Shown in pieces: positions 11,456 through 60,809 of a stretch of 64,000 bases of DNA (position 1 is the stretch's first letter; each line of letters begins with the position of its first letter). This DNA comes from Solen grandis (Eukaryota > Mollusca > Bivalvia > Adapedonta > Solenidae): NCBI GenBank assembly GCA_021229015.1, contig CM037788.1, forward strand, positions 38,340,024 to 38,404,023, in the 5' to 3' direction. The notes under the pieces are model-generated. The model searched no databases. It was not told where the DNA came from and saw only the letters and a list, made by a program, of their open reading frames with translations. The position numbers were made by a program, and so were the translations under genes.

Positions 11456-12292
11456 ACACTGGGACATTAGGTAGTCAATGGTTGACTTAGTTTGTCTTTG
11501 TTGCAGTATTTGAGCAGTTGAACAAGTCATGAAGACTGGGCTGAAATTTTCACTGCTGAAAACTGGAAAATTGCACCATGTTTGTTTTCTCTTCCATTTG
11601 GGGACTTTTGTCTATGAGTACACGACTTTGTCTATGAGTACAGACGATTGTGCTGCCTCACTGAGCTATGATGGCAAGTAGCATGATACCACACACACAC
11701 ACACATATATAACACATTAGTCACATTATTCTGACACTGGTCCAACCAGTCCTGGATCTATCAGGAACTTTGACTTGCACATAAGCATTAATTACTTGTG
11801 TTAATTTGTATGTTCCTCAATCTCCTTCTCCTATTTTGAGATGGAGATGGAACATCATGATAATACTTGGAACCAGTCTAATATTATGTGATTCATGATC
11901 TTGGACCCAAACTGACACTTTTGTTTTGTTTCTTTTATACAAATGGAGAAATGGGTTAAATTTTCAAAGGTATGCTAATATCATGTGAATAACAGCCAAG
12001 TATCTTGAGTGAAATTTATTCAGTCAAATTGGTTAGGGATACTGATTTTTCCAATTAATTGATCACAATTACTCAAATTGATTCTCATCACTATCTTATA
12101 CACATAGTTTTTGAGAACACGGGGCCTGGTCTTGCGCATAAGACAGTACAGCATTCACCTGTCTTAATGTCACAAAACATGGGTTTTCTTCTTCTCCCAC
12201 AATAATGATGTCATAATGATGTCATAATTATGCCACCAGAGTGCCATCAAAAGTGATTTTATGTAAGTTATGAGAACTTGTTTTGCGACTGA
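11456..12292. other. Non-coding stretch with a short CA microsatellite
   Basis: A (CA)n(TA)n run lies near 11690-11710. No exon-like frames were seen. Confidence 0.55.
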
Positions 12293-12294
12293 TA

Positions 12295-13619
12295 TGAGGG
12301 CGGGTCAATAATTAGTGTCGTCCCTCAGTTTATTTCACGAATACTGCATGGAGGACATGCAAAGTTATACTATCATATGCACAAATTCTTTAGCTTTCAA
12401 ACAGTGTATCATACATGTATATCTATACACAAGGACAGTGAGAAAATAAGTACTGAAAGAGGTACATACGATCAACTGCGTATAAAAATGTCTGCCAAAC
12501 GTTCAGTGAACTCTTTAGAAATACGGTCTTATATTAAAACGCGTATGGCTTTAGGAATAAGCGCAACAGTAATTCACAATGAACTCTGTACTCTTTTGGG
12601 TCTTCTGTTGTTAGTTTAAGAACAGTTCAAAGATGGATTGTTATGTTCAAGAATGGCAGAGAGAGGTTGGAGGATGCCAGTGGTAGAGGCAGGAAACCGT
12701 CAGTTATCACCAGAAACAACATTTAAAAAGTAAACAATCTCATTGGTAAAGAAGCACGATATACGATTTCTGAGATAGCTAGGTATGCTGGCATGTCAAA
12801 AGGGTCAGCTTTTACCATTCTGAAGAAGCATCTTCGAGTTAGGAAGATCGCTGCTAGGTGGATACCACATTTGTTAAGTCCTGAACAAAAGCAAGAGCGT
12901 GTGAAATGTGCCAGAAAATTATTAAAGATGTTTCCAAAATATGACAGTAGGAAGTTTTCTAGCATTGTTACTGGTTCCCCTTTTTTGAGCCGACTCGCAA
13001 AATAAATAATAAAATATGGGCAATGAAACCTGCCCGTAGGCCTTGTATAGCCAAAAGAGTGACAAGCTCCAAGAAAGTAATGTATGCTATATTCTTCGGA
13101 ATTCACGGATTAGTTGCACAAGTTGCTGTTCCAAAGAAATGCTCTGTCAATGCGAAGTTTTACAGAAGGAAAGTGCTAACTAAAGTTGACAAATATTATT
13201 GTAAGCTTCGTCCTAGTACCGGAATGAGGGGCATGTACCTTTTGCATGATAACGCTACACCACACAAAGCGGACATTGTGAAGAAATTTCTTGAAGTAAA
13301 CATGTGACTGTTCTAAACCACTCACCATACTCGCCAGATTTGGCACCCTGTGACTTTTTTCTGTTCCCAAAGTTAAAGAAACACCTTCAGGGTCGCCACT
13401 ACAGAAGCCGGAATGGACTTCAATCCGCATTGTATCAATTATGTAAAGGTATACCTAGAGAAGACTATAGAAAAGCATTTGAAAATTGGATTAAACGACT
13501 AAAACTCTGTGTATTACATAAAGGTGATTACTTTGAAGGAATGACATAAAGAAATTGATATTTGTGTCAGTGGTTTTCATTTTACTAAGGTAACGACACT
13601 AATTATTGACCCGCCCTCG
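12295..13619 (+). mobile_element. mariner-family transposon, complete ends, inactivated
   Basis: The terminal inverted repeats are about 26 bp and match perfectly apart from the outermost base. The left end starts (T)GAGGGCGGGTCAATAATT at 12295, and the right end finishes with the inverse (AATTATTGACCCGCCCTC) plus G at 13619. TA dinucleotides lie outside at 12293-12294 and 13620-13621, the hallmark Tc1/mariner target duplication. The element is 1325 bp, a normal mariner size, and holds a broken transposase gene (12488-13549). Identical ends with a decayed gene mean it can no longer act alone, although it could in principle be mobilised by an intact relative. Confidence 0.93.
12488..13549 (+). 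pseudogene. mariner transposase pseudogene
   Basis: The frame pieces read as one mariner transposase (about 350 codons). The N-terminal helix-turn-helix region starts MSAKRSVNSL at 12488. A frameshift near 12599 leads into a second HTH stretch (RTVQRWIVMF). An in-frame TAA lies near 12724, followed by the linker ARWIPHLLSPEQKQER. A deletion/frameshift at about 12973-12980 removes the residues that normally carry the first catalytic Asp (VTG is followed by SPFF instead of the usual GDE-type motif). The second Asp is in LLHDNATPHK, and the third is in SPYSPDLAPCDFF after another frame slip at 13304. The 34-residue spacing between the last two Asp residues fits the DD34D class. The end is DYFEGMT. 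Clearly non-functional. Confidence 0.92.
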
Positions 13620-16412: not shown

Positions 16413-16654
16413 TTAACCCTTTCCCTCATAGAGGACACCATGAAAAGACCTATGCGAACAGCATAAAACCAGATCAGCCTGCGAGTAACTCGCAGGCTGA
16501 TCAGGTTTTATGCTGTTCGCTGCTCCTCAGTGGTCTGGAAATTAGGATTTTGTAATTAATTTTGGTAAGGTTTAACTGTGGTTTTCTGCAGATCAGGCTT
16601 TATGTGATACCTATAGAGGGCGTCAAAAGGAGTATATATGAGGGAAAGGGTTAA
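16413..16654 (+). repeat. TTAA-flanked hairpin MITE, copy 2 (242 bp)
   Basis: TTAA lies at both edges, with the same termini as copy 1. The central hairpin is at 16454-16520: GCGAACAGCATAAAACC, A, GATCAGCCTGCGAG, loop TAA, CTCGCAGGCTGATC, A, GGTTTTATGCTGTTCGC. The stem is 32 positions long, counting one A/A mismatch. It is the cleanest copy of the fold in the window. Confidence 0.9.
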
Positions 16655-22592: not shown

Positions 22593-22805
22593 TTAACACT
22601 TACCCTTCTGGAACCATAAGTGCTAACCTTTGCCACCAGTAAAGAGCCAGGCCAGCCTGCACGGATGTGCAGACTGGCCTGGCTCTTTACTGTTGGCTGA
22701 CCAACTACAAGTTTTCATCTTGTTATCCCTAAAATTGATAATGGACAGTTCCAAAAAAAGATGCCAGCTAAGTCCATTTGAGAAATTCAGAAGGTTAAGG
22801 GTTAA
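22593..22805 (+). repeat. TTAA MITE, third subfamily, with 25-bp hairpin
   Basis: It starts TTAACACTTACCCTTCTG and ends CAGAAGGTTAAGGGTTAA, an inverted pair. The central arms 'agtaaagagccaggccagcc' plus 'tgcac' and 'gtgca' plus 'gactggcctggctctttact' pair around a GGAT loop with one mismatch. Overlapping 67-aa frames on both strands follow from this palindrome. Confidence 0.82.
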
Positions 22806-26199: not shown

Positions 26200-26299
26200 N
26201 NNNNNNNNNNNNNNNNNNNNNNNNNNNNNNNNNNNNNNNNNNNNNNNNNNNNNNNNNNNNNNNNNNNNNNNNNNNNNNNNNNNNNNNNNNNNNNNNNNN
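26200..26299. other. Assembly gap (100 N)
   Basis: Exactly 100 N, the conventional size for a scaffold gap of unknown length. It interrupts the minus-strand exon, so reading frames drawn across it are not meaningful. Confidence 0.99.
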
Positions 26300-26456: not shown

Positions 26457-26698
26457 TTAACCATTTCCCTCATATAGACTCATTTTGACGCACTCAATAG
26501 GTATCACATAAAGCCTGATCTGCAGAAAACCACAGTTAAACCTTAACAAATTTAATTACAAAATCCTCATCTCCAGACCACTGAGGAGCAGAGAACAGCA
26601 TAAAACCTGATCAGCCTGCGAGTTACTCGCAGGCTGATCTGGTTTTATGCTGTTCGCATAGGTCTTTTCCTGGTGTCCTCTATGAGGGAAAGGGTTAA
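26457..26698 (-). repeat. TTAA-flanked hairpin MITE, copy 3 (242 bp, reversed)
   Basis: Same element as 1111 and 16413 in reverse orientation, with TTAA at both ends and the central 'gatcagcctgcgag' hairpin intact. It sits directly beside a SINE. Confidence 0.9.
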
Positions 26699-26945: not shown

Positions 26946-27516
26946 CCTATATTTCTAATCCTGCATGTATTTGAATAAAACTAGAAACTATCCCTGAAGG
27001 TGATTAATAACCCCCCCAGACAACTTTGCCTCCATCTAATGTAAGCTTAGAGTGGGGTCATGACATGACGGGACACCACAAGCATGAATCTTGATATAGC
27101 CCCCTCTTCTTTGATGCAGGGATATATAGAGGATAATTGCTTGTTTTGGTGTAAGATCAATTAATAATTTCACTAAGTGAACATAAAAGGGCTATTTTCA
27201 TGAGTGGCAAAGCCATAAGTGAAAATGCATCAATTTTTGTTCATGAATGAAACTATACATCGATCTTTCACCAAAACAAATATTTTATCTTTTGATTTAA
27301 TGCTTTAAAGGCCTGAAATTAGCTGTGTTATTCACAAAAGATGTCAAATTGGTGGGATTACCTTTCGTGCATGACATTATTCATGACGTCAATTCTTGCG
27401 TAAAACCAAGCACAATTGATGCTCAGATCAATTATAATGTAGGGTCGGGTTCAAGTTCCTGATAATTTCACTGTTTTTCTGATAATTTCACTGTTCAAAA
27501 ACAATGAAATTATTAG
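26946..27516. other. Non-coding; fragment of the 'gattaatacccccgc' repeat
   Basis: The stretch 26978-27025 has 'ctagaaactatccctgaagg' and 'gattaataaccccccc', the left end of the repeat at 39931 and 41551. The rest is AT-rich. Confidence 0.45.
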
Positions 27517-27657
27517 TGTGACGATGCGTCGTCACGGGTATAAGTTCAATCTCTGACAACTGCGTCAGGGAGTCGACTCTTTGGCTCAGTGGTTAGAGCA
27601 TTGGGTTATCACGCCGGCGGACCGGGTTCGATTCCGGGCCGGGCCGTGTTTGTTACA
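27517..27657 (+). repeat. 5' LTR of TRIM copy A
   Basis: 141 bp, TG...CA ends. A TATAA motif is at 27539-27543. The tRNA-like part runs from about 27575 to 27645. Its D stem GCTC/GAGC is paired, and its T arm CCGGG-TTCGATT-CCGGG is perfect. The acceptor stem does not pair, so this is a tRNA relic rather than a tRNA gene. Confidence 0.88.
27582..27635 (+). promoter_or_regulatory. Pol III A box and B box within the LTR
   Basis: A box TGGCTCAGTGG (27582-27592) fits TRGYnnAnnnG at every position. B box GGTTCGATTCC (27625-27635) is a perfect consensus match. The 43-nt start-to-start distance equals that in real tRNA genes. No run of four or more T occurs anywhere in copy A. A Pol III transcript started here would therefore not meet a standard terminator before leaving the element. 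Confidence 0.8.
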
Positions 27658-27659
27658 TT

Positions 27660-27677
27660 TGGTGTCAGAAGTGGGAT
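27660..27677 (+). promoter_or_regulatory. Primer-binding site, tRNA-Leu type (copy A)
   Basis: TGGTGTCAGAAGTGGGAT begins with the TGG that pairs with CCA. The remainder pairs with the acceptor and T-stem end ATCCCACTTCTGACA known from animal tRNA-Leu(CAG). All 18 positions match that recalled sequence. Confidence 0.85.
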
Positions 27678-27726
27678 ATTGTCAACTGCCATACTGGAGT
27701 TGCCTTATCCACGTGTTTCCCAGGCC

Positions 27727-27745
27727 AAGTCTCGGGTCGAGACTT
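27727..27745 (+). other. Conserved 8-bp hairpin in TRIM interior
   Basis: AAGTCTCG-GGT-CGAGACTT forms a perfect stem with a three-base loop. It is identical in copy B at 36017-36035, although that copy is much more diverged elsewhere. It may act in RNA dimerisation or packaging, by analogy with retroelement leader hairpins. That role is inference. Confidence 0.75.
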
Positions 27746-27762
27746 CTCGGAGGGGGAAGTAA

Positions 27763-27903
27763 TGTGACGATGCGTCCTCACGGGTATAAGTTCAATCTCT
27801 GACAACTGCGTCAGGGAGTCTACTCTTTGGCTCAGTGGTTAGAGCATTGGGTTATTACGCCGGCGGACCGGGTTCGATTCCGGGCTGGGCCGTGTTTGTT
27901 ACA
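27763..27903 (+). repeat. 3' LTR of TRIM copy A
   Basis: 141 bp, identical to the 5' LTR except for four substitutions (about 97%). This points to a fairly recent insertion. The A and B boxes are both intact (TGGCTCAGTGG and GGTTCGATTCC). Confidence 0.88.
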
Positions 27904-27976
27904 TTAGGATATAATCCAGTTATTTCGAGGTAAACCATCAAAAAGCCCATTAAACAAGAGAATCGGTAGAACCGAT

Positions 27977-34895: not shown

Positions 34896-35807
34896 TTGTT
34901 TTATAAGAACTGTAGAAATGAAACACTTTAATCTATTCTAACTTTGGTATAAGATTTTGAAAAAAATCTTAGAGATATGTCCCATATACATTGTTGTAGT
35001 ATTTATTGCAGAATGTCAAACATTAAAGAATAATCTGTATATGTTTTTGTCAAGAAAAAATGTAGAATGCTCTAGCTTGTTCAGGCCCAATGCTTTCGAA
35101 AATTATAACTGTAAACTCCATGGTACGATCTCTGAGGCTCATATATGAGTAAAAAGCTCAAGTCCCTATTGAAACTGCAAGATTCTAAAAGCATATATTA
35201 TTTTATATTAATCTTAGTTTCATGAAAATACAAAACCTGATGGTGTTATGGATGTTTGTTTTTTTTCAGGCTTTTTTTATCAGAAGTAGGTCAAAGGTCA
35301 AGGTCAACTGCATAATGAAGAGGTCCATCCATTTAAGCAACTGTCCAAATATTAAAGCAATCCAATGAAGGACATATAAGTTAAGCAGATTAAGAAAAAG
35401 GTCAACCTGAGAGGACACGAGGCACTCACCCGGACATCATCAATTTAAAGTACAGAATTTTTTATTGAAAAACCCATCCAAAAATTGAGCTCGTGCCAAG
35501 ACTTAAAATAAGCCTTAACGATATAATTTGCAAAAGCAAATGGCAATGGATTTTTTTTTTTTTTACATAATGTATGACACAGAAATGTCTTTAATACTGC
35601 AATATCAAGCGATAGACAAGTGACATGGTACCACACCCAGTCACATATCCTGAAACCGGGTCATCCTGAGTCTTGGAGCTTAACCCTTAAATGCTGATCG
35701 CCAAGCAAGGGAGATAAACCAGAACCATTTTTCACAGAATATGTATGTCGCAGCTCTGAGATTCCAACTACACACACATGTACACTGCATAATTATATTG
35801 ATAATAT
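34896..35807. other. Non-coding stretch
   Basis: AT-rich. A 'gtcaaaggtcaaggtcaact' phrase near 35288 belongs to a dispersed repeat. No exon. Confidence 0.45.
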
Positions 35808-36189
35808 TATGACGATGTGTTGTCACAGGTAAAAACACTATCTCTGAGAACTGCGTCAGGAAGTCGACCTTTTGGCTCAGTGGTTAGAGCATTGGACTTG
35901 CACACCGATGGACCAGGTTCAATCCTGGGCCGGGTCGAGTTTGTTACATTGGTGGCAGTGGTTGGATAATGTCAACTGCCAGACTTGAGTTGCCTTACCC
36001 ATATGTTTCCCAGGCCAAGTCTCGGGTCGAGACTTCTCGGAGGGGAAAGTAATGTGACAATGCGTACAGGTATAAATGCAATCTTTGACAACTGTGTCAG
36101 GGAGTCAACGCTTTGGCTCAGTGGTCTGAGCATTGGACTTGCACATCGGTGGACCAGGTTTGATCCTGGGTCGGGTTGAGTTTGTTACA
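35808..36189 (+). mobile_element. TRIM retrotransposon copy B with tRNA-like LTRs (382 bp, older)
   Basis: LTRs are at 35808-35948 (141 bp) and 36053-36189 (137 bp), clearly more diverged from each other than in copy A. The left LTR starts TA instead of TG; both end TGTTACA. ATAT flanks both sides (35804-35807, 36190-36193). The purine tract GGAGGGGAAAG precedes the right LTR. The interior of 104 bp aligns to copy A nearly end to end. A and B boxes are present in both LTRs, at least in degenerate form (TGGCTCAGTGG; GGTTCAATCCT or GGTTTGATCCT). Confidence 0.88.
35950..35967 (+). promoter_or_regulatory. Primer-binding site, possibly a different tRNA-Leu isoacceptor (copy B)
   Basis: TGGTGGCAGTGGTTGGAT differs from the copy A site at four positions. 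It matches 16 of 18 positions of the complement of tRNA-Leu(AAG/TAG)-type ends (ATCCCACCGCTGCCA-CCA) as I recall them. This suggests a primer switch within one family rather than random decay. The tRNA comparison is from memory. Confidence 0.55.
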
Positions 36190-36413
36190 ATATGATATTG
36201 TCTGTAATAAATTTAACATTATTTTGTCATGTTGGTAAAAAGTTTTCGACAATAAAATTGAAAAACAACTGCCTTTGTTGTATTTGTTTCTAATACTGAT
36301 ATTATAAACAAATCCATTAATGCAGTGAAATGAATATGGTGACATATAACTTTTTTGAAAAACTTGTCCATGATATCTTATTACAGATAAAAAAAGTCAT
36401 CAAGAGGTATTTG
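36190..36413. other. Non-coding stretch
   Basis: Nothing recognised. Confidence 0.4.
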
Positions 36414-48000: not shown

Positions 48001-51000
48001 TATAAATATGAAATATATTGCTAAATGTTGTTGTGTATGTTTATTAAGTGTTTTGAAATTATATATGTACCAGACGACTTCAGTAACCGCAATACCCCTG
48101 AATAAATGTATTTTGGTTGGTATTCCGTTTTTTTTTTGTTGTATTCCAGTATTTCGGTTAGTCGTGTGAGCGAACAGTATTCTGTCAAAAAGGATCCAAG
48201 TTAAAACGATGCCAAAATGGTCAAAACTGCCCCATCTTGGTGTGAAGATTATTTAAAATGGCCCCATATAAATGGACCCTTTATGAATGTGTGAGCAATT
48301 AGATAATTTTATTAAAGCAATGTGTAAAAGGCAAAGCGATACCTTTTTAAGTGTGACAAATCAAATGTGTGAGTGTGTATTTGTGTCAATTATTTCATTA
48401 TATATATATATATATATACACACACAAAATAATCCTGTGTTTTTAAATGTTATTTTTTTGCTATAATCCTAAATATCCAAAATTGAAATTATGGGATAAA
48501 AATGTAACTAACTCGACCTGGCTCAGGATCGAACCTTGCCGGCATGCAAGTCCAATGCTCTAACCACTGAGACAAAGGGTTGGCTCCCTGATGGAGTTGT
48601 CAGAGATTGTATTTATACCTGTGACGACGCATCATCACAAAAACAAGTCAAATGTTTTTTTATAGAGAATATAGATAGAAATGTCATAAATAATCTATTG
48701 TAAAAAATTAACTAGTTACGAGGGCAGTAAATCTTATCAAAATGATGCCGATTCCATTGTCAATTCTATCTGAGAAGTATGTATTTCTGCTTGAGTCATT
48801 TGGACATACAAAAATACAAAATAAACAGTATAGTATTTAACACACTAAAATGAAACTACCACATTGGTTTGGACCAAAATGTAAAAATGCCCGTAGGAAC
48901 TTTCATAAGGCAAAATATCCATATAAACTATGAAAAAACATTTCTAATAAAGACAGTTTAAATCAAAAGTTAAAATATAAAAATCTACAAATAACAAACT
49001 ATATGAAATCAAGAAACAAAAATATTCAAAATTTAAAAACTAATGACTGAAGAAAATATTGGGAAAAAATGTAAAATAAAGTTGAAATTAATATAGACAA
49101 TCTATATGACTTATTTTATATACATTTTTTAGAATAATGAAGACAAAATTAGGTTTTAAAGATTATTTTATGAAAACTCCAACTGGATATTTAAAGTTTT
49201 TTGTATTTATCTCTTCTAATCACTTACATCATAAAGATAGATTTCACACACTTTTCTCCCCTCTTATGGGCCCAGACCCTATCCCCCTAAGGTGAAAAAA
49301 AAACAATGGCTTTGGTGTTTTTCTGTATGGACATCTCAGTTTAATTATTCCAGTTTTTTTTATATAAATTGTGAACCAGTTTTACCAGTGCACTGTGGTT
49401 CAAAATGCTTCCAGGTATGATACGTACCAATAAGAATCAGTGTAACCATTTGTTGTTGTTGTTGTTGTTTTCCCAGATACAAAAATTCTAAAGGTCAAGA
49501 GCATTTTTTATTAATTAATTAAATACCCTAGAACATTATTCTTTGAATATCCTTCATGTTTTAACTTTGCTGAAAATTTGTGGAAGTCCTGTGCAAGTTG
49601 CAAATAGAGTAGCCTGCCTTGTCAAAGTGTGCTTGATGTGTAGGAACATGAATTTATTTAAAACAAAACAGCATAAAGCAATATATTGGCAATGTTTAAA
49701 GTGGAACAAACAAAGAAATTAAGTTCTAGTAAACAATACATACTGATAGGTATCATGTTTTAATCATCTTGAAATGTTTTTTGTTTCAGAATACCAAATC
49801 AAGAGAGAATTATACAGTATGTAAGTATACTATTACCTACTTGCACTTATAATAGATTACTGTAGGGCTGAAATGAATACTAGAGTACATACTGGTGATT
49901 ATCTACTAAATACGAGGTGTATCCTGTTAAATGTATTTTCACTCGCCCTGCACTTATTAAATGTTCACTTGACATGGCGAGTGCAAGGGTGAGTGTAATT
50001 TAACACTCTTGTGTAGTGGAATGTTTAACCTAAGCAAACTGTCAAACCCATGTAAATAAGCAAGAGCCACTTTGGTCCTCATTTCAGACTAGTATCAAAC
50101 TTAATATATAGCAATTCTCCACACACCCATCCTTTGATACATGTATATGCATGGGGCTCTTCTTTGACACACTAGTCAGGATACTGACCATTTAAATTTA
50201 GAAATTGTACCTTTTGATTCTTGAAAATAAATATTCAGGGGTCAAATTTATATTAAAGTAAGAAGGAAAAGACTCACAAAATCCTCAAAATATTGTTCTT
50301 TTTACAATTTTGGAACATTTTGACCTTTGAGTTTCACTGACAATAGGGAGCCTTAATGCATGATTTATGTTCAATATTAACATCATGTTTCGTATTAGGA
50401 AGATTTACCGTCCCCAGTGGCCGAGTGGTTAGAGTGTCTGCCTTTGGAGCAGGAGGTCGTAGGTTTGATCCCCGCCCGTGACATACCAAAGTCGTAAAAA
50501 TGGTACTGTTATAGCTCCCTTGCTTGGTGCTCAGCATATAAGGGTAGTTTCAGGACTGGTTGGCCTGGTGTCAGGATAATGCCACATGTCTATGGTGTGA
50601 TACTGCAGTGTGGCTGCACTATATCTGTCTCAAGTAGACATCGTCTCCAAATGACTGAAATACTGTCGGTGGGACGTTAAACCAAACAAACATTTTTTAA
50701 ATTGACAAGGTTATGTTCATTTTCTCAGCTTGCAGATTCAGCACCAATTAGAAAGGCAGCAAAGGCAACAGTTCATTTCTTCATTAGAAGTCAATACAAA
50801 GGTTAGTACTAGCTGTCAGTGTTCTACTAAGATTTGAAAGTTAGGATAGAACTTGTGATTTTCTTGAATTTTTGGTAACACTCTGTAAGAAATTTGTAAC
50901 AAAAACCTTAAAAAAGGGCAGTACTGAAAACCAGAGTGAGAACACTGGCAGTTCAGTCTGTCAGCCTAAACCAGCATAATTTCTTAATTACATTTAAACA

Positions 51001-52518
51001 ATAAATATATTTTTTTTAATTTTATATTTTGATCCCCAAATCTATACAAAGTGTTTCTGTGTGTTGTGCAATATCAAAACATGTATACATATAGTCTACT
51101 CATAATGCACAAATATACATAATACATGCATACAATATAAGTATACAATAATTACAATGGAAAAGAAGTTTTACGTACCATTAAGTTACAATATGCAAAT
51201 GTATGGCAATAGAGCAATAAATGTACATACAAAAGAACATTGTCTTTAGTTACCTCCTGAAAGTTTAACCCTTTCCCTCATAGAGGATACCATGAAAAGA
51301 CCTATGCGAACAGCATATAACCAGATCAGCCTGCGAGTAACTCGCAGGCTGATCAGGTTTTATGTTGTTCGCTGCTCCTCAGTGGTCTGGTAATGAGATT
51401 TTACATTTATTTGGTAAGGTTTGAGTTTGGCTTTCTGCAGATCAGGCTTTATGTGGTACCTATTGAGTGCGTCAAAATGAGTCTATATGAGGGAAAGTTT
51501 AACTTGACCCTAGAAAATATGAATTTGACCTTTGAAAATTTTGGCTGAAGAGTCAATGATGTTTGAAGCTTAGAGTGTGCCGAATGCCTTGACAGACATA
51601 TATTACCTTACTCTTGCATCAATCAGAGGAAAACCTGCTTTTTTTGTCTGTTGAATGATTAAATACCATTAATTTTCAAAATTAATTGAATACATTGTAT
51701 TTATTTGAAAAAGTTCAGAAATATGCAATCTCTCATCATTTGATTTAAATTGAGTATATAAATTTTTTAGCCTTTCATATCCTTTTTTGTCACCTTCCCA
51801 AGTGGTAAGAGCGTCTGCTCTGGGAGCAGGAGGTTGTGGCTTCGGTTCCCACCCGCGACATACCAGTCGTAAAAAATGGTACTGTTATAGCTCCCTTGCT
51901 TGGTGCTCAGCATATAAGGGTAGTTCCAGGACTAGTTGGCCTGGTGTCAGGATAATGTGACTGGGTGTGGTATCATGCTACATGTCTACAGCATGATACT
52001 GCAGTGTGACAGACAATATCTGTCTCAAGTAGACATAGTCTCCAAATGGCTGAAATACTGTCTGTTGGAAGTTAAACCCAACAAACAACCAACTGGAATC
52101 CAAGTAATACTTTTGGGTGATGGTATATATTATATGTATCAATTCACCTGGGGCTTGGGGGTGGGGGGTCTGCTCTCTAACAGCAACAAAAAAAATTTCC
52201 ATTGGACACAATGACCAGATTTTTTATCAGCCAGAATGTAATATTCAGAGTTACGGCCCTTGAATTAATGGAATTGATTGACGGGCATATTTTGCAATAA
52301 CCAGCGCTTGTTTAATTTAGATATACTTGTAAACACTGGAAAAATCATTGATGGCAGTCTATCAGATGAAAACTAATTATTTTGATAATATTTTAGCTAA
52401 TGAAAAAATGGATGAAGTTCTAAAGAAGTCCTCAGAAAAAGTTTCGGACGGCTCATTCAAAGACAGATTTCTGAAAAATATTGCAGAGGAATTAAAAAGG
52501 AAAAGGAGAGAAGAGTGA
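44954..52518 (+). CDS. NCBP2AS2: NCBP2AS2-like small protein (103 aa, four exons)
   Basis: Exons 44954-45039, 49790-49820, 50729-50801 and 52397-52518 join in phase. The first junction splits a Lys codon (AA|A), the second falls between codons, and the third splits an Ala codon (G|CT). All introns are GT-AG. The product is 103 aa: a hydrophobic stretch at residues 9-18 (LAFLLLVYLF), then a conserved core LADSAPIRKAAKATVHFF at about 40-57. A charged, helical, Lys/Arg/Glu-rich C-terminus ends KRKRREE. Human NCBP2AS2 (99 aa, as I recall) has LSESRPIRRAAQLTAF and a similar basic tail. Its molecular role is poorly known. The hydrophobic N-terminus could anchor it in a membrane, which is inference. 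The start has a good context (tcaATGG) and no upstream in-frame alternative of similar quality. Confidence 0.75.
45630..46755 (+). mobile_element. TIR transposon with BED-like zinc-finger exon, internally deleted
   Basis: CATACCTGTCAA starts at 45630 and its inverse TTGACAGGTATG ends at 46755. CATAAG lies directly outside both ends (45624-45629, 46756-46761), a 6-bp duplication. The 1126-bp element contains a short coding exon (46073-46200) and tandem 'tcacgatt' words near its left end (45655-45722). It has lost any catalytic domain, so it is a non-autonomous derivative. It lies in intron 1 of the NCBP2AS2-like gene. Confidence 0.75.
46073..46200 (+). CDS. First exon of a BED-type zinc-finger transposase, remnant
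   Basis: The ATG at 46073 opens 42 codons, beginning MKTPEKKKKSYASKYNN. It then has WELEFSWLSKSD and ends FAFCKLCR at a donor AG|gtatgt. The Lys-rich start, the aromatic W/F residues and the CxxC pair fit the N-terminal half of BED-like fingers found in hAT-type and related transposases and their domesticated relatives. No downstream exon with the His pair or catalytic domain is present before the element ends at 46755. It is probably a leftover of an internal deletion. Confidence 0.55.
46895..48395. other. Intron 1 of the NCBP2AS2-like gene, non-coding
   Basis: AT-rich with degenerate phrases ('ccggaatacc', 'tattttggttggtattccg' near 47750-48170) that appear twice as 'cattaggtggta'-like tandem blocks, including 'gtgcttgtttagtgttttaaa' and 'gtgcttgtgtagtgtatttata'. 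No exon. Confidence 0.4.
48398..48427 (+). repeat. (TA)n(CA)n microsatellite
   Basis: A (TA)10-type run followed by (CA)4. Confidence 0.85.
48503..48639 (-). mobile_element. Solo LTR of the tRNA-like TRIM family (137 bp, minus strand)
   Basis: On the minus strand it starts TGTGATGATGCGTCGTCACA, has a full TATAAATA box, a degenerate A box (TGTCTCAGTGG) and B box (GGTTCGATCCT), and ends TTAGTTACA. No second LTR, primer site or purine tract follows. AAAA lies on both sides (48499-48502, 48640-48643), consistent with a 4-bp duplication, though an A-run is weak evidence. A lone LTR is what recombination between two LTRs leaves behind, which supports reading the repeats as true LTRs. Confidence 0.82.
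48644..49789. other. Intron 1, distal part
   Basis: AT-rich, with a (GTT)6 run at about 49452-49470. The acceptor of intron 1 is ttgtttcag at 49781-49789. Confidence 0.5.
49790..49820 (+). CDS. NCBP2AS2: Exon 2 (31 bp) of the NCBP2AS2-like gene
   Basis: A 31-bp exon, acceptor ttgtttcag|A and donor TAT|gtaagt. It encodes the end of codon 29 and IPNQERIIQY. Too short to be found without its neighbours, but both splice sites are strong and the phases match on both sides. Confidence 0.72.
50406..50697 (+). repeat. tRNA-derived SINE, family 3, full-length, in intron 2
   Basis: The tRNA-like head 'cccagtggccgagtggttag' has an A box and 'ggtttgatcccc' a B box. It continues with 'atggtactgttatagctccc', 'agcatataagggtagtttca', 'ctcaagtagacatcgtctcc' and 'gaaatactgtcggtgggacg', and ends 'ttaaaccaaacaaac' plus a T-run. 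It ends about 31 bp before exon 3, so its tail is next to the acceptor pyrimidine tract. Confidence 0.85.
50729..50801 (+). CDS. NCBP2AS2: Exon 3 of the NCBP2AS2-like gene
   Basis: 73 bp, acceptor tttctcag|CTTG, donor AAAG|gttagt. It encodes the conserved core LADSAPIRKAAKATVHFF followed by IRSQYK, the part that identifies the family. Confidence 0.78.
51265..51502 (+). repeat. TTAA-flanked hairpin MITE, copy 4 (238 bp), in intron 3
   Basis: TTAA edges, the same termini and the same central hairpin as copies 1-3, with a few small deletions. Confidence 0.88.
51788..52095 (+). repeat. tRNA-derived SINE, family 3, in intron 3
   Basis: Same block order as 50406-50697 with a longer middle ('gtgactgggtgtggtatcat'). 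The head is slightly truncated at the A box ('cccaagtggtaagagcg'), and the B box is 'ggttcccacccg', degraded. It ends 'gttaaacccaacaaac'. The 92-aa plus and 77-aa minus frames over it are not genes. Confidence 0.82.
52397..52518 (+). CDS. NCBP2AS2: Exon 4 and stop of the NCBP2AS2-like gene
   Basis: Acceptor ataatattttag|CTAATG. It encodes 40 residues from the split Ala codon to a TGA at 52516-52518. The sequence is strongly helical and charged (DRFLKNIAEELKRKRREE). The 3' UTR follows. Confidence 0.76.
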
Positions 52519-59161: not shown

Positions 59162-60809
59162 CTGCCAATAAAGAGAAAAGCAACTCACGTACACCAAATA
59201 CCTCGTTTAATAGATGTAGGACAACGAGGACTAACCGCGAAACTGTTCTTACTGCATTTGTGGGTCAAGCTACGTTCGAATGAACGTCATGCCCCCGCGA
59301 GTGGGGTGGGGTGGGAGGGGCTAAGACCTTGGGGGTCAAGGTCATTTGAAGGTCATGGTCACCTGCGGGTAGAGCTCATCAAGGTGCATGTACCTGTGTA
59401 GTTTGGAGGTTGTAAGTGGAAGGACTGTTGTGTTATGGTCAAGGTTAAAGTTTTGTAACAAACAGAAAGACAGACCACAAACAAAATGCCCCCGATCTAT
59501 CGTCGCAGGGGCATAAAAAAGGAGACGGAACAGTTTCGCAGTTAACCCTCGCCATAGCCCAATACCTTTATACGGAATAAATGAAACTAATACATTAAAT
59601 TTTTGAACATTTCTTTCACGTCAAAATGGAACACGTTGTTTTCTGACATATGGTAATAACTCTTCTCGACGTTACCTGGGTTGAACCAGTACTTTGCGCC
59701 CGGGAAGGTCTTAAAAATTCTCGCCCGTAGCGGAAATTGAACTTCCAACCTTCGGGTCCGTAACCTTCTGCCTCTACCACTGAACCAATGTGTCCTTAAA
59801 CTGAATAAATCAATAGTACTGTCAGTTGACATTGGTACTAAATTTAGCAATATTTCTGCAAATAAAAATTTTATGCTACTGTAAAATCACTATTTTTCGT
59901 TTACATTAAATATCGTTAAAAATGTATTTAAGGTTATTTCGTGTGTACAATTATTCGTGGATTATTGTTCTTGAAAACAGTGTGTACAAAATAAACATTT
60001 TTTCTTGGGGATTCATAATCGTTGATAAAATCAACCACGAAATATTGACTATTTGAACGCAACGAAAATTAATGATTAAACAGTATATATTTTCCGAAAA
60101 GGAGGAGTCCTGATTACAAGCCCTGACCTGGAAGATAACCTTATTGTTCAGCTCGTCCGGGGACAACATGAAGCACAACGCAACCAATGTGTCCACTTCC
60201 TCCTCCGTCAGACGCTGATGTTGCCTGTAGTCACTATGGAGACAGAAGGAGGGATGGGGTCAATATAGTTGACAGTATGTAGTCGCCATATTTTTAGTCA
60301 TGAAATCCTTATGAAGGTACTGTTTCGACAATTTTGAGAATACCATGGTTATTAATATTCGTGTTTCGGTCATGTTGGCCAAGTGGGAAGAACCGAGTAA
60401 TAAGTCATTTAAGTCGTTAATATGGAATCCCCCTTGCCTGGCGGCCAGCATGTAAGGGTAGTTTAGGCTCAGGAATAGTTGGTTTGGTTTCAAGATAATG
60501 TGACTGGGTGTGGTACCATATGTAACTTGTTCTACGGCGTGATATATCAAAGCAAGGAAGCATTGCACGTATATTTAGACGATGTTCGAACATAGTAAGA
60601 GCACTGTCGACAAAATAAACCATAAATGAAGATAAAATGTAAGTTATGACACACCGAAGTTTCCGCAAGTTTGCCTGGTCAGTCAAATCTAGCACGTGAC
60701 ACATGGAGTCTAGGTAGTACATGAGTTTTGCCCTAGGATCGTCCGACACGTCGACGAAACGCCCGAATTCCTTGACATCTGTTTCCCGAGAGCCTGCCAC
60801 AACGTTCAT
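58826..60809 (-). CDS. Uncharacterised 198-aa protein, three exons
   Basis: Minus-strand exons 60809-60655, 60233-60128 and 59161-58826 join in phase with GT-AG introns. Residue 52 is Arg from CG|T, and the second junction falls between codons. The start ATG has A at -3. A possible acceptor (tcctttttctag) 9 bp upstream means an earlier 5' exon may exist. Residues 1-150 are mixed charged and hydrophobic, including DDPRAKLMYYLDSMCHVLDL, LTEEEVDTLVALCFML and NIVIGGQTRRVLKIMAYTRY. Residues 155-198 are low-complexity, rich in Pro, Arg, Ser and Gln. No signal peptide or membrane span is evident. I do not recognise the family, and the composition suggests a soluble protein with a disordered tail. 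Confidence 0.78.
59262..59516 (+). repeat. 'ggggcata' repeat, copy 2, in intron 2 of the 198-aa gene
   Basis: It starts 'caagctacgttcgaatgaac' and 'gtcatgcccccgcgagtgg', and ends 'gatctatcgtcgcaggggca' and 'taaaaa'. It matches 20983-21240 over its full length with fewer changes, including the gaccttggggGTCAAGGTCA block. Confidence 0.75.
59680..59800 (-). repeat. tRNA-derived SINE, family 1, in intron 2 of the 198-aa gene
   Basis: On the minus strand 'cattggttcagtggtagagg' carries an A box (TGGTTCAGTGG), and 'ggaagttcaatttccgc' a degenerate B box at tRNA spacing. It is followed by 'gaccttcccgggcgcaaagt' and 'actggttcaacccagg'. This is the best family 1 head in the window. The head is not a functional tRNA. 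Confidence 0.68.
59878..60085 (+). repeat. TACTGT fold-back MITE, in intron 2 of the 198-aa gene
   Basis: 'tactgtaaaatcactatttt' at the left is inverted as 'aaaattaatgattaaacagta' at the right. The interior has 'cgtggattattgttcttgaa' and 'gttgataaaatcaaccacg'. About 208 bp, ending 43 bp before exon 2's donor side. Confidence 0.78.
60128..60233 (-). CDS. Exon 2 of the 198-aa gene
   Basis: 106 bp, acceptor tctgtctccatag|TGACTAC, donor TTCCAG|gtcagg. It encodes DYRQHQRLTEEEVDTL and VALCFMLSPDELNNKVIFQ. Confidence 0.8.
60425..60570 (+). repeat. SINE family 3 fragment, in intron 1 of the 198-aa gene
   Basis: 'cccttgcctggcggccagca', 'tgtaagggtagtttaggctc' and 'gtgactgggtgtggtaccat' match 51788-52095. 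The tRNA head is missing and the 3' end is lost. Confidence 0.65.
60655..60809 (-). CDS. Exon 1 (first coding exon) of the 198-aa gene
   Basis: The ATG at 60809-60807 opens 51 codons plus two bases. The donor is CTTCG|gtgtgt, a weaker but acceptable GT site. The alternative, reading on into the intron, gives an AT-derived tail overlapping a SINE and is rejected. Confidence 0.76.

Follow-up and report, generated by a model that had tools for sequence, protein, structure and literature searches.

A miniature LTR retrotransposon family with tRNA-like LTRs, very probably of the Helenus type, in a 64-kb stretch of Solen grandis DNA

TRIMs that carry a tRNA-like sequence in their LTRs were named Helenus in 2024 (Kojima 2024, PMC10886601). 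The analogy with Cassandra was the starting point of that work, which proposed an origin through entry of a SINE into an LTR and in which Pol III transcription of Helenus is, as here, inferred rather than shown (PMC10886601). Elements of this class measure 311-1263 bp. They are recorded from fungi, from a lycopod and from six phyla of animals, and five orders of bivalves account for 51 of the families; those of animals have 4-bp duplications, and Gypsy elements have been proposed as their movers (PMC10886601). The primers listed for bivalve Helenus are the tRNAs for Lys, His, Ile, Pro, Glu and Ser, while tRNA-Leu is given for hymenopteran and vertebrate Helenus (PMC10886601).

Several other described systems lie close to this class. 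Cassandra and Ajax are TRIMs as well, and their LTRs likewise carry a promoter of the Pol III type, but one derived from 5S rRNA, and the duplications of Ajax are 5-bp (PMC10886601). Among bivalves, biv-TRIM (Satovic 2019, PMC6934838) is a TRIM that also leaves solo repeats; it has repeats of 202-218 bp, an interior of 77-80 bp and no clear primer site. Steamer and its relatives in clams are full-size, Gypsy-type LTR retrotransposons, for which PMC8905726 gives a Mya arenaria LTR of 177 bp that begins TGTAACA. A Steamer-like element of a mussel is described with an Asn primer site, not a Leu one (PMC11046912).

Here we describe an element at positions 27517-27903 of the window, by which we mean the whole 64-kb stretch of DNA that was analysed. 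Together with two further members found in the window, this element (copy A) very probably represents a family of non-autonomous LTR retrotransposons of the Helenus type, that is, TRIMs with a tRNA-derived promoter in the LTR.

Anatomy of the element and its relatives in the window

Copy A is 387 bp long and is bounded by two plus-strand LTRs of 141 bp each (27517-27657 and 27763-27903), which have TG...CA termini and differ from one another by 4 mismatches. The element is flanked by the target site duplication TTAG (27513-27516 and 27904-27907). A spacer, TT, follows the 5' LTR and leads into a plus-strand primer binding site of the tRNA-Leu type, TGGTGTCAGAAGTGGGAT, at 27660-27677, and a purine tract, GGAGGGGGAAG, lies at 27749-27759 on the same strand, ahead of the 3' LTR. 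The cis requirements of LTR reverse transcription (repeats, primer site and purine tract) are all present. None of the six translations of copy A contained a long reading frame, and since the element has no coding capacity, its proteins must come from a helper. A sequence-only reading of this locus had reported the paired 141-bp repeats with their TG...CA ends, an 18-nt tRNA-Leu-type site two bases past the first repeat, the purine tract before the second, the TTAG duplication, the lack of coding capacity and, in both repeats, an A box and a B box with a spacing of 43 nt, and our analysis recovered these features at the positions given here and below.

A similarity search of the 64-kb window matched copy A to positions 35810-36189, with 82% agreement across 385 columns and an E value of 8e-109. 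This second full copy (copy B) spans 35808-36189, a length of 382 bp, and is flanked by ATAT at 35804-35807 and 36190-36193. Its 5' LTR (35808-35948, plus strand, 141 bp) begins with TA, not TG, its primer site lies at 35950-35967 on the plus strand, and its 3' LTR (36053-36189, plus strand) measures 137 bp. Copy C is a solo LTR on the minus strand at 48503-48639, flanked by TTTT at 48499-48502 and 48640-48643 (minus-strand reading). Neither copy B nor copy C had figured in the sequence-only reading. LTR lengths in the family run from 137 to 141 bp, and the interior is 104-105 bp in copies A and B. LTRs from different copies diverge by 17-21%, so that copies A, B and C represent separate insertions of a diverged family and not recent duplicates of one locus. 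Copy B is the older of the two full copies, as 22 of 137 compared sites differ between its LTRs and its 5' LTR starts with TA, compared with 4 of 141 differing sites in copy A. The presence of a second full copy and a solo LTR, each with its own duplication, marks this as a dispersed family of LTR type and goes in the direction that the sequence-only reading expected, and on the strength of copies B and C the possibility that copy A is a chance structure was rejected.

Perfect 4-bp duplications were found at all three insertions, and all three are different (TTAG, ATAT and TTTT). At these spacings a 4-mer match occurs at 0.53-0.59% of window positions, which gives the chance rate; if the three sites are independent and the element ends are taken as given, three matches out of three would arise by chance about 2 times in 10 million. 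The duplication of copy C is the weakest, because TTTT is the commonest match type in AT-rich DNA and a common word here.

The LTR start also contains an inverted repeat at 27518-27535, GTGACGA-TGCG-TCGTCAC, that could fold into a hairpin. Its rough form survives in the 5' LTR of copy B and in copy C; the 3' LTR of copy A has one change in it, and in the 3' LTR of copy B a deletion interrupts it.

The tRNA-like block and the choice of polymerase

Each LTR of copy A carries an A box, TGGCTCAGTGG, and a B box, GGTTCGATTCC, spaced 43 nt start to start. The A boxes start at 27582 and 27828 and the B boxes at 27625 and 27871, within plus-strand tRNA-like blocks at 27582-27638 (B box, 27625-27635) and 27828-27884. 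These two blocks scored 25.8 and 26.0 bits, respectively, with the Rfam tRNA model, below its cut-off of 29. The cut-off was exceeded in one of the five LTRs, the 5' LTR of copy B (35.8 bits at 35873-35928), which calls for caution in annotation; for the 3' LTR of copy B and for copy C, nothing was listed with this model up to E = 1. ARAGORN did not find a tRNA gene.

When a relaxed pattern was used, both boxes were recognisable in all five LTRs. Across these LTRs, 11 of the 12 A-box columns are invariant, compared with 13 of 31 columns between the boxes, while conservation of the B box (7 of 11 columns) does not exceed that of the entire LTR (86 of 141). In copy C the A box is altered, and the stretch separating the two boxes is 4 bases shorter. 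A loose A-box/B-box scan of the window returned 5 pairs, no better than chance when compared with the 1-5 pairs in each of 10 simulated windows; three of the 5 sit in LTRs of the family, and both LTRs of copy B were missed. The pattern, equalled as it is by simulated sequence, was rejected as stand-alone evidence. Overall, we conclude with good confidence that the LTR block is tRNA-derived. From its sequence, the block would work as a Pol III promoter, and Pol III is likely to be the main polymerase of the family. A TRIM with a tRNA-derived Pol III promoter, as advanced in the sequence-only reading, stands as the best reading of the structure, with Pol III transcription retained as a prediction.

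A different account accepts the same element structure and holds that Pol II drives it from a TATA-like box of the LTR and that an old SINE insertion left the tRNA-like block behind as a passenger. The LTRs do carry GGTATAA in four of five cases, with GGTAAAA in the 5' LTR of copy B, and in all five this motif starts a constant 45 nt before the A box; within the 5' LTR of copy A, TATAAG at 27539-27544 (plus strand), which starts 43 nt upstream of the A box, is a putative promoter element. The scores of the copy A blocks, under the Rfam cut-off, also fit a passenger. Against this account, both boxes can be recognised with the relaxed pattern in five of five LTRs despite the 17-21% divergence between copies, and copy A contains no AATAAA on its plus strand. 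On balance we regard a Pol II-driven element with a passenger block as unlikely. Starts by Pol II from the upstream TATA-like sequence, or TATA-aided starts by Pol III, are possible.

No TTTT occurs inside copy A, and the nearest one lies 214 nt past the end of the element. Copy B has a single TTTT, in its 5' LTR just before the A box. By shuffling (2000 shuffles), absence of TTTT was not significant, with P of about 0.10 for copy A (reached in 10% of shuffles), 0.32 for copy B and 0.79 for copy C; the idea that it reflects selection favouring read-through by Pol III was accordingly rejected.

Comparison with Helenus and other short elements

The family agrees with Helenus in the points of anatomy compared, with the reservations on the tRNA scores given above. 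In copies A and B a pair of short LTRs encloses an interior that is likewise short and non-coding, and their lengths of 387 and 382 bp fall within 311-1263 bp. The LTRs of the family contain tRNA-like sequence with A and B boxes, by the relaxed pattern in 5/5 and with the Rfam cut-off passed in 1/5. As in animal Helenus, the primer site is complementary to a tRNA 3' end (18/18 in copy A and 17/18 in copy B, for tRNA ends taken from papers and not from the host), and 4-bp duplications flank the insertions, here three of three in the window. A purine tract precedes the 3' LTR, and solo LTRs occur in both. The point of difference is the tRNA-Leu primer, which is absent from the bivalve list in PMC10886601; the likeness as a whole is one of anatomy.

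In the literature searched, the name Helenus (singular form) was not found outside PMC10886601, and the primer-site and A-box strings of copy A were not found; seven papers contain the complementary tRNA 3' end only. Pattern scans for related elements gave 0 matches in viral contigs and genome contigs; these collections consist of viral and prokaryotic DNA and may omit records near the window's genome, so that this result says nothing about animals. The novelty suggested in the sequence-only reading does not hold, as Helenus was named in 2024 and its SINE-into-LTR origin was proposed in the same work (PMC10886601). With the class itself known since then, the new part is small: primer sites that fit two different tRNA-Leu ends in the two full copies, suggestive of a primer switch, and a putative Leu primer, which the bivalve list lacks.

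Cassandra and Ajax were rejected as the class of these elements, since up to E = 1 the window gave no match to 5S rRNA. A SINE, or a tandem pair of SINEs, would account for the tRNA-like block, and the window does contain, at 50.4 kb, a SINE-like repeat with a tRNA head. In the copy A family, however, the tRNA block sits inside the repeat and not at its head, and the family shows a primer site and a purine tract, has an interior common to copies A and B, includes a solo LTR and is flanked by 4-bp duplications; a tRNA-derived SINE, defined by a tRNA head, body and tail and no LTR pair, is a different structure. We consider it highly improbable that the element is a SINE and not an LTR element, and the tandem pair was rejected on these LTR-element features, with copies B and C speaking against it. 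Membership in biv-TRIM, which is of the same size class and also has solo repeats, is equally improbable and was rejected, since the family has repeats of 137-141 bp, an interior of 104-105 bp and a clear primer site, a distinction of structure, with the figures for biv-TRIM from PMC6934838.

The SINE-like repeat, at about 50410-50692, serves as an instructive counterpart to the LTR element. It scores 26.1 bits with the Rfam tRNA model at 50417-50476, short of the cut-off of 29, and ends in GACGTTAAACCAAACAAACA; partial relatives lie at 51798-51957, 35646-35732, 60431-60500 and 11724-11760. A protein search with one window reading frame that overlaps a SINE-like fragment gave no match, a PDB search with a piece of that frame gave none, and a text search for repeat strings found nothing either. 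A Pfam scan of 9 window reading frames returned 3 weak matches, all below cut-off, and at 12727-13307 two reading frames overlap, of which one weakly matches, below cut-off, the transposase domain Transposase_1. The model of the microRNA family mir-1253 gave weak matches far below cut-off at 16446-16526, 26582-26670, 22622-22700, 51298-51378 and 1141-1227, one of the five sites being matched on both strands, and these sites may belong to a dispersed repeat that is palindromic. Positions 26200-26299 are a run of 100 N.

Primer sites and a proposed life cycle

The primer site of copy A fits the complement of ATCCCACTTCTGACACCA at 18 of 18 positions, this tRNA end being one from the literature and not the host's own. 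We take the tRNA that ends in this way to be tRNA-Leu-CAA. The same 3' end is found within a longer fragment printed in PMC12025293. Assignment to Leu is supported by the first 12 bases of the copy A site, which equal TGGTGTCAGAAG, a string that PMC8905726 gives as the tRNA-Leu primer site of the autonomous Steamer elements of clams. No helper element for the copy A family was found; judged by the shared primer-site sequence, Steamer-type elements are a candidate only.

The primer site of copy B differs from that of copy A at 4 of 18 positions. Compared with the complements of tRNA 3' ends, it fits human tRNA-Leu-TAG (printed in PMC9233364) at 17/18, Leu-AAG at 16/18 and the Leu end of copy A at 14/18, with human tRNA ends that may differ from those of the host. 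When four random changes were made to the copy A site, a fit of at least 17/18 to Leu-TAG was reached in 192 of 1,000,000 trials, a figure for Leu-TAG considered alone and for human tRNA ends. Copy B is old enough for plain decay to have altered its primer site. A primer switch, with different tRNA-Leu ends used by copies A and B, appears to be the better reading of these sequences, although it is not proven. The primer tRNA is itself the template for the new primer site, so that a single mispriming would rewrite the site in one round.

In the likely life cycle, Pol III would initiate in the 5' LTR, several bases ahead of its A box, and, copy A having no TTTT stop, the transcript would cross both LTRs into the flank. 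A tRNA-Leu would prime cDNA synthesis at the primer site present in the element, strand transfer would proceed via the repeated LTR sequence, and the purine tract would prime the second strand. An autonomous Gypsy element would then supply the reverse transcriptase and the integrase that insert the copy with a 4-bp duplication, such as those observed at the three insertions, and recombination between LTRs would leave solo LTRs such as copy C.

These elements can be joined into a single reading, that of a tRNA-Leu-primed Helenus family with a Steamer-like Gypsy mover, a switch between two tRNA-Leu species and an LTR that provides a start but no stop signal, so that transcription would end in host DNA. 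We offer this combination tentatively, leaning slightly against its holding in full. The family is an independently found example, with clear boundaries, of a class of SINE-like LTR elements that was named only recently, and a single stretch of 64 kb holds two of its full copies and one solo LTR, together with three target duplications. If borne out genome-wide, the difference between the primer sites of copies A and B would document primer switching as it happened in nature.
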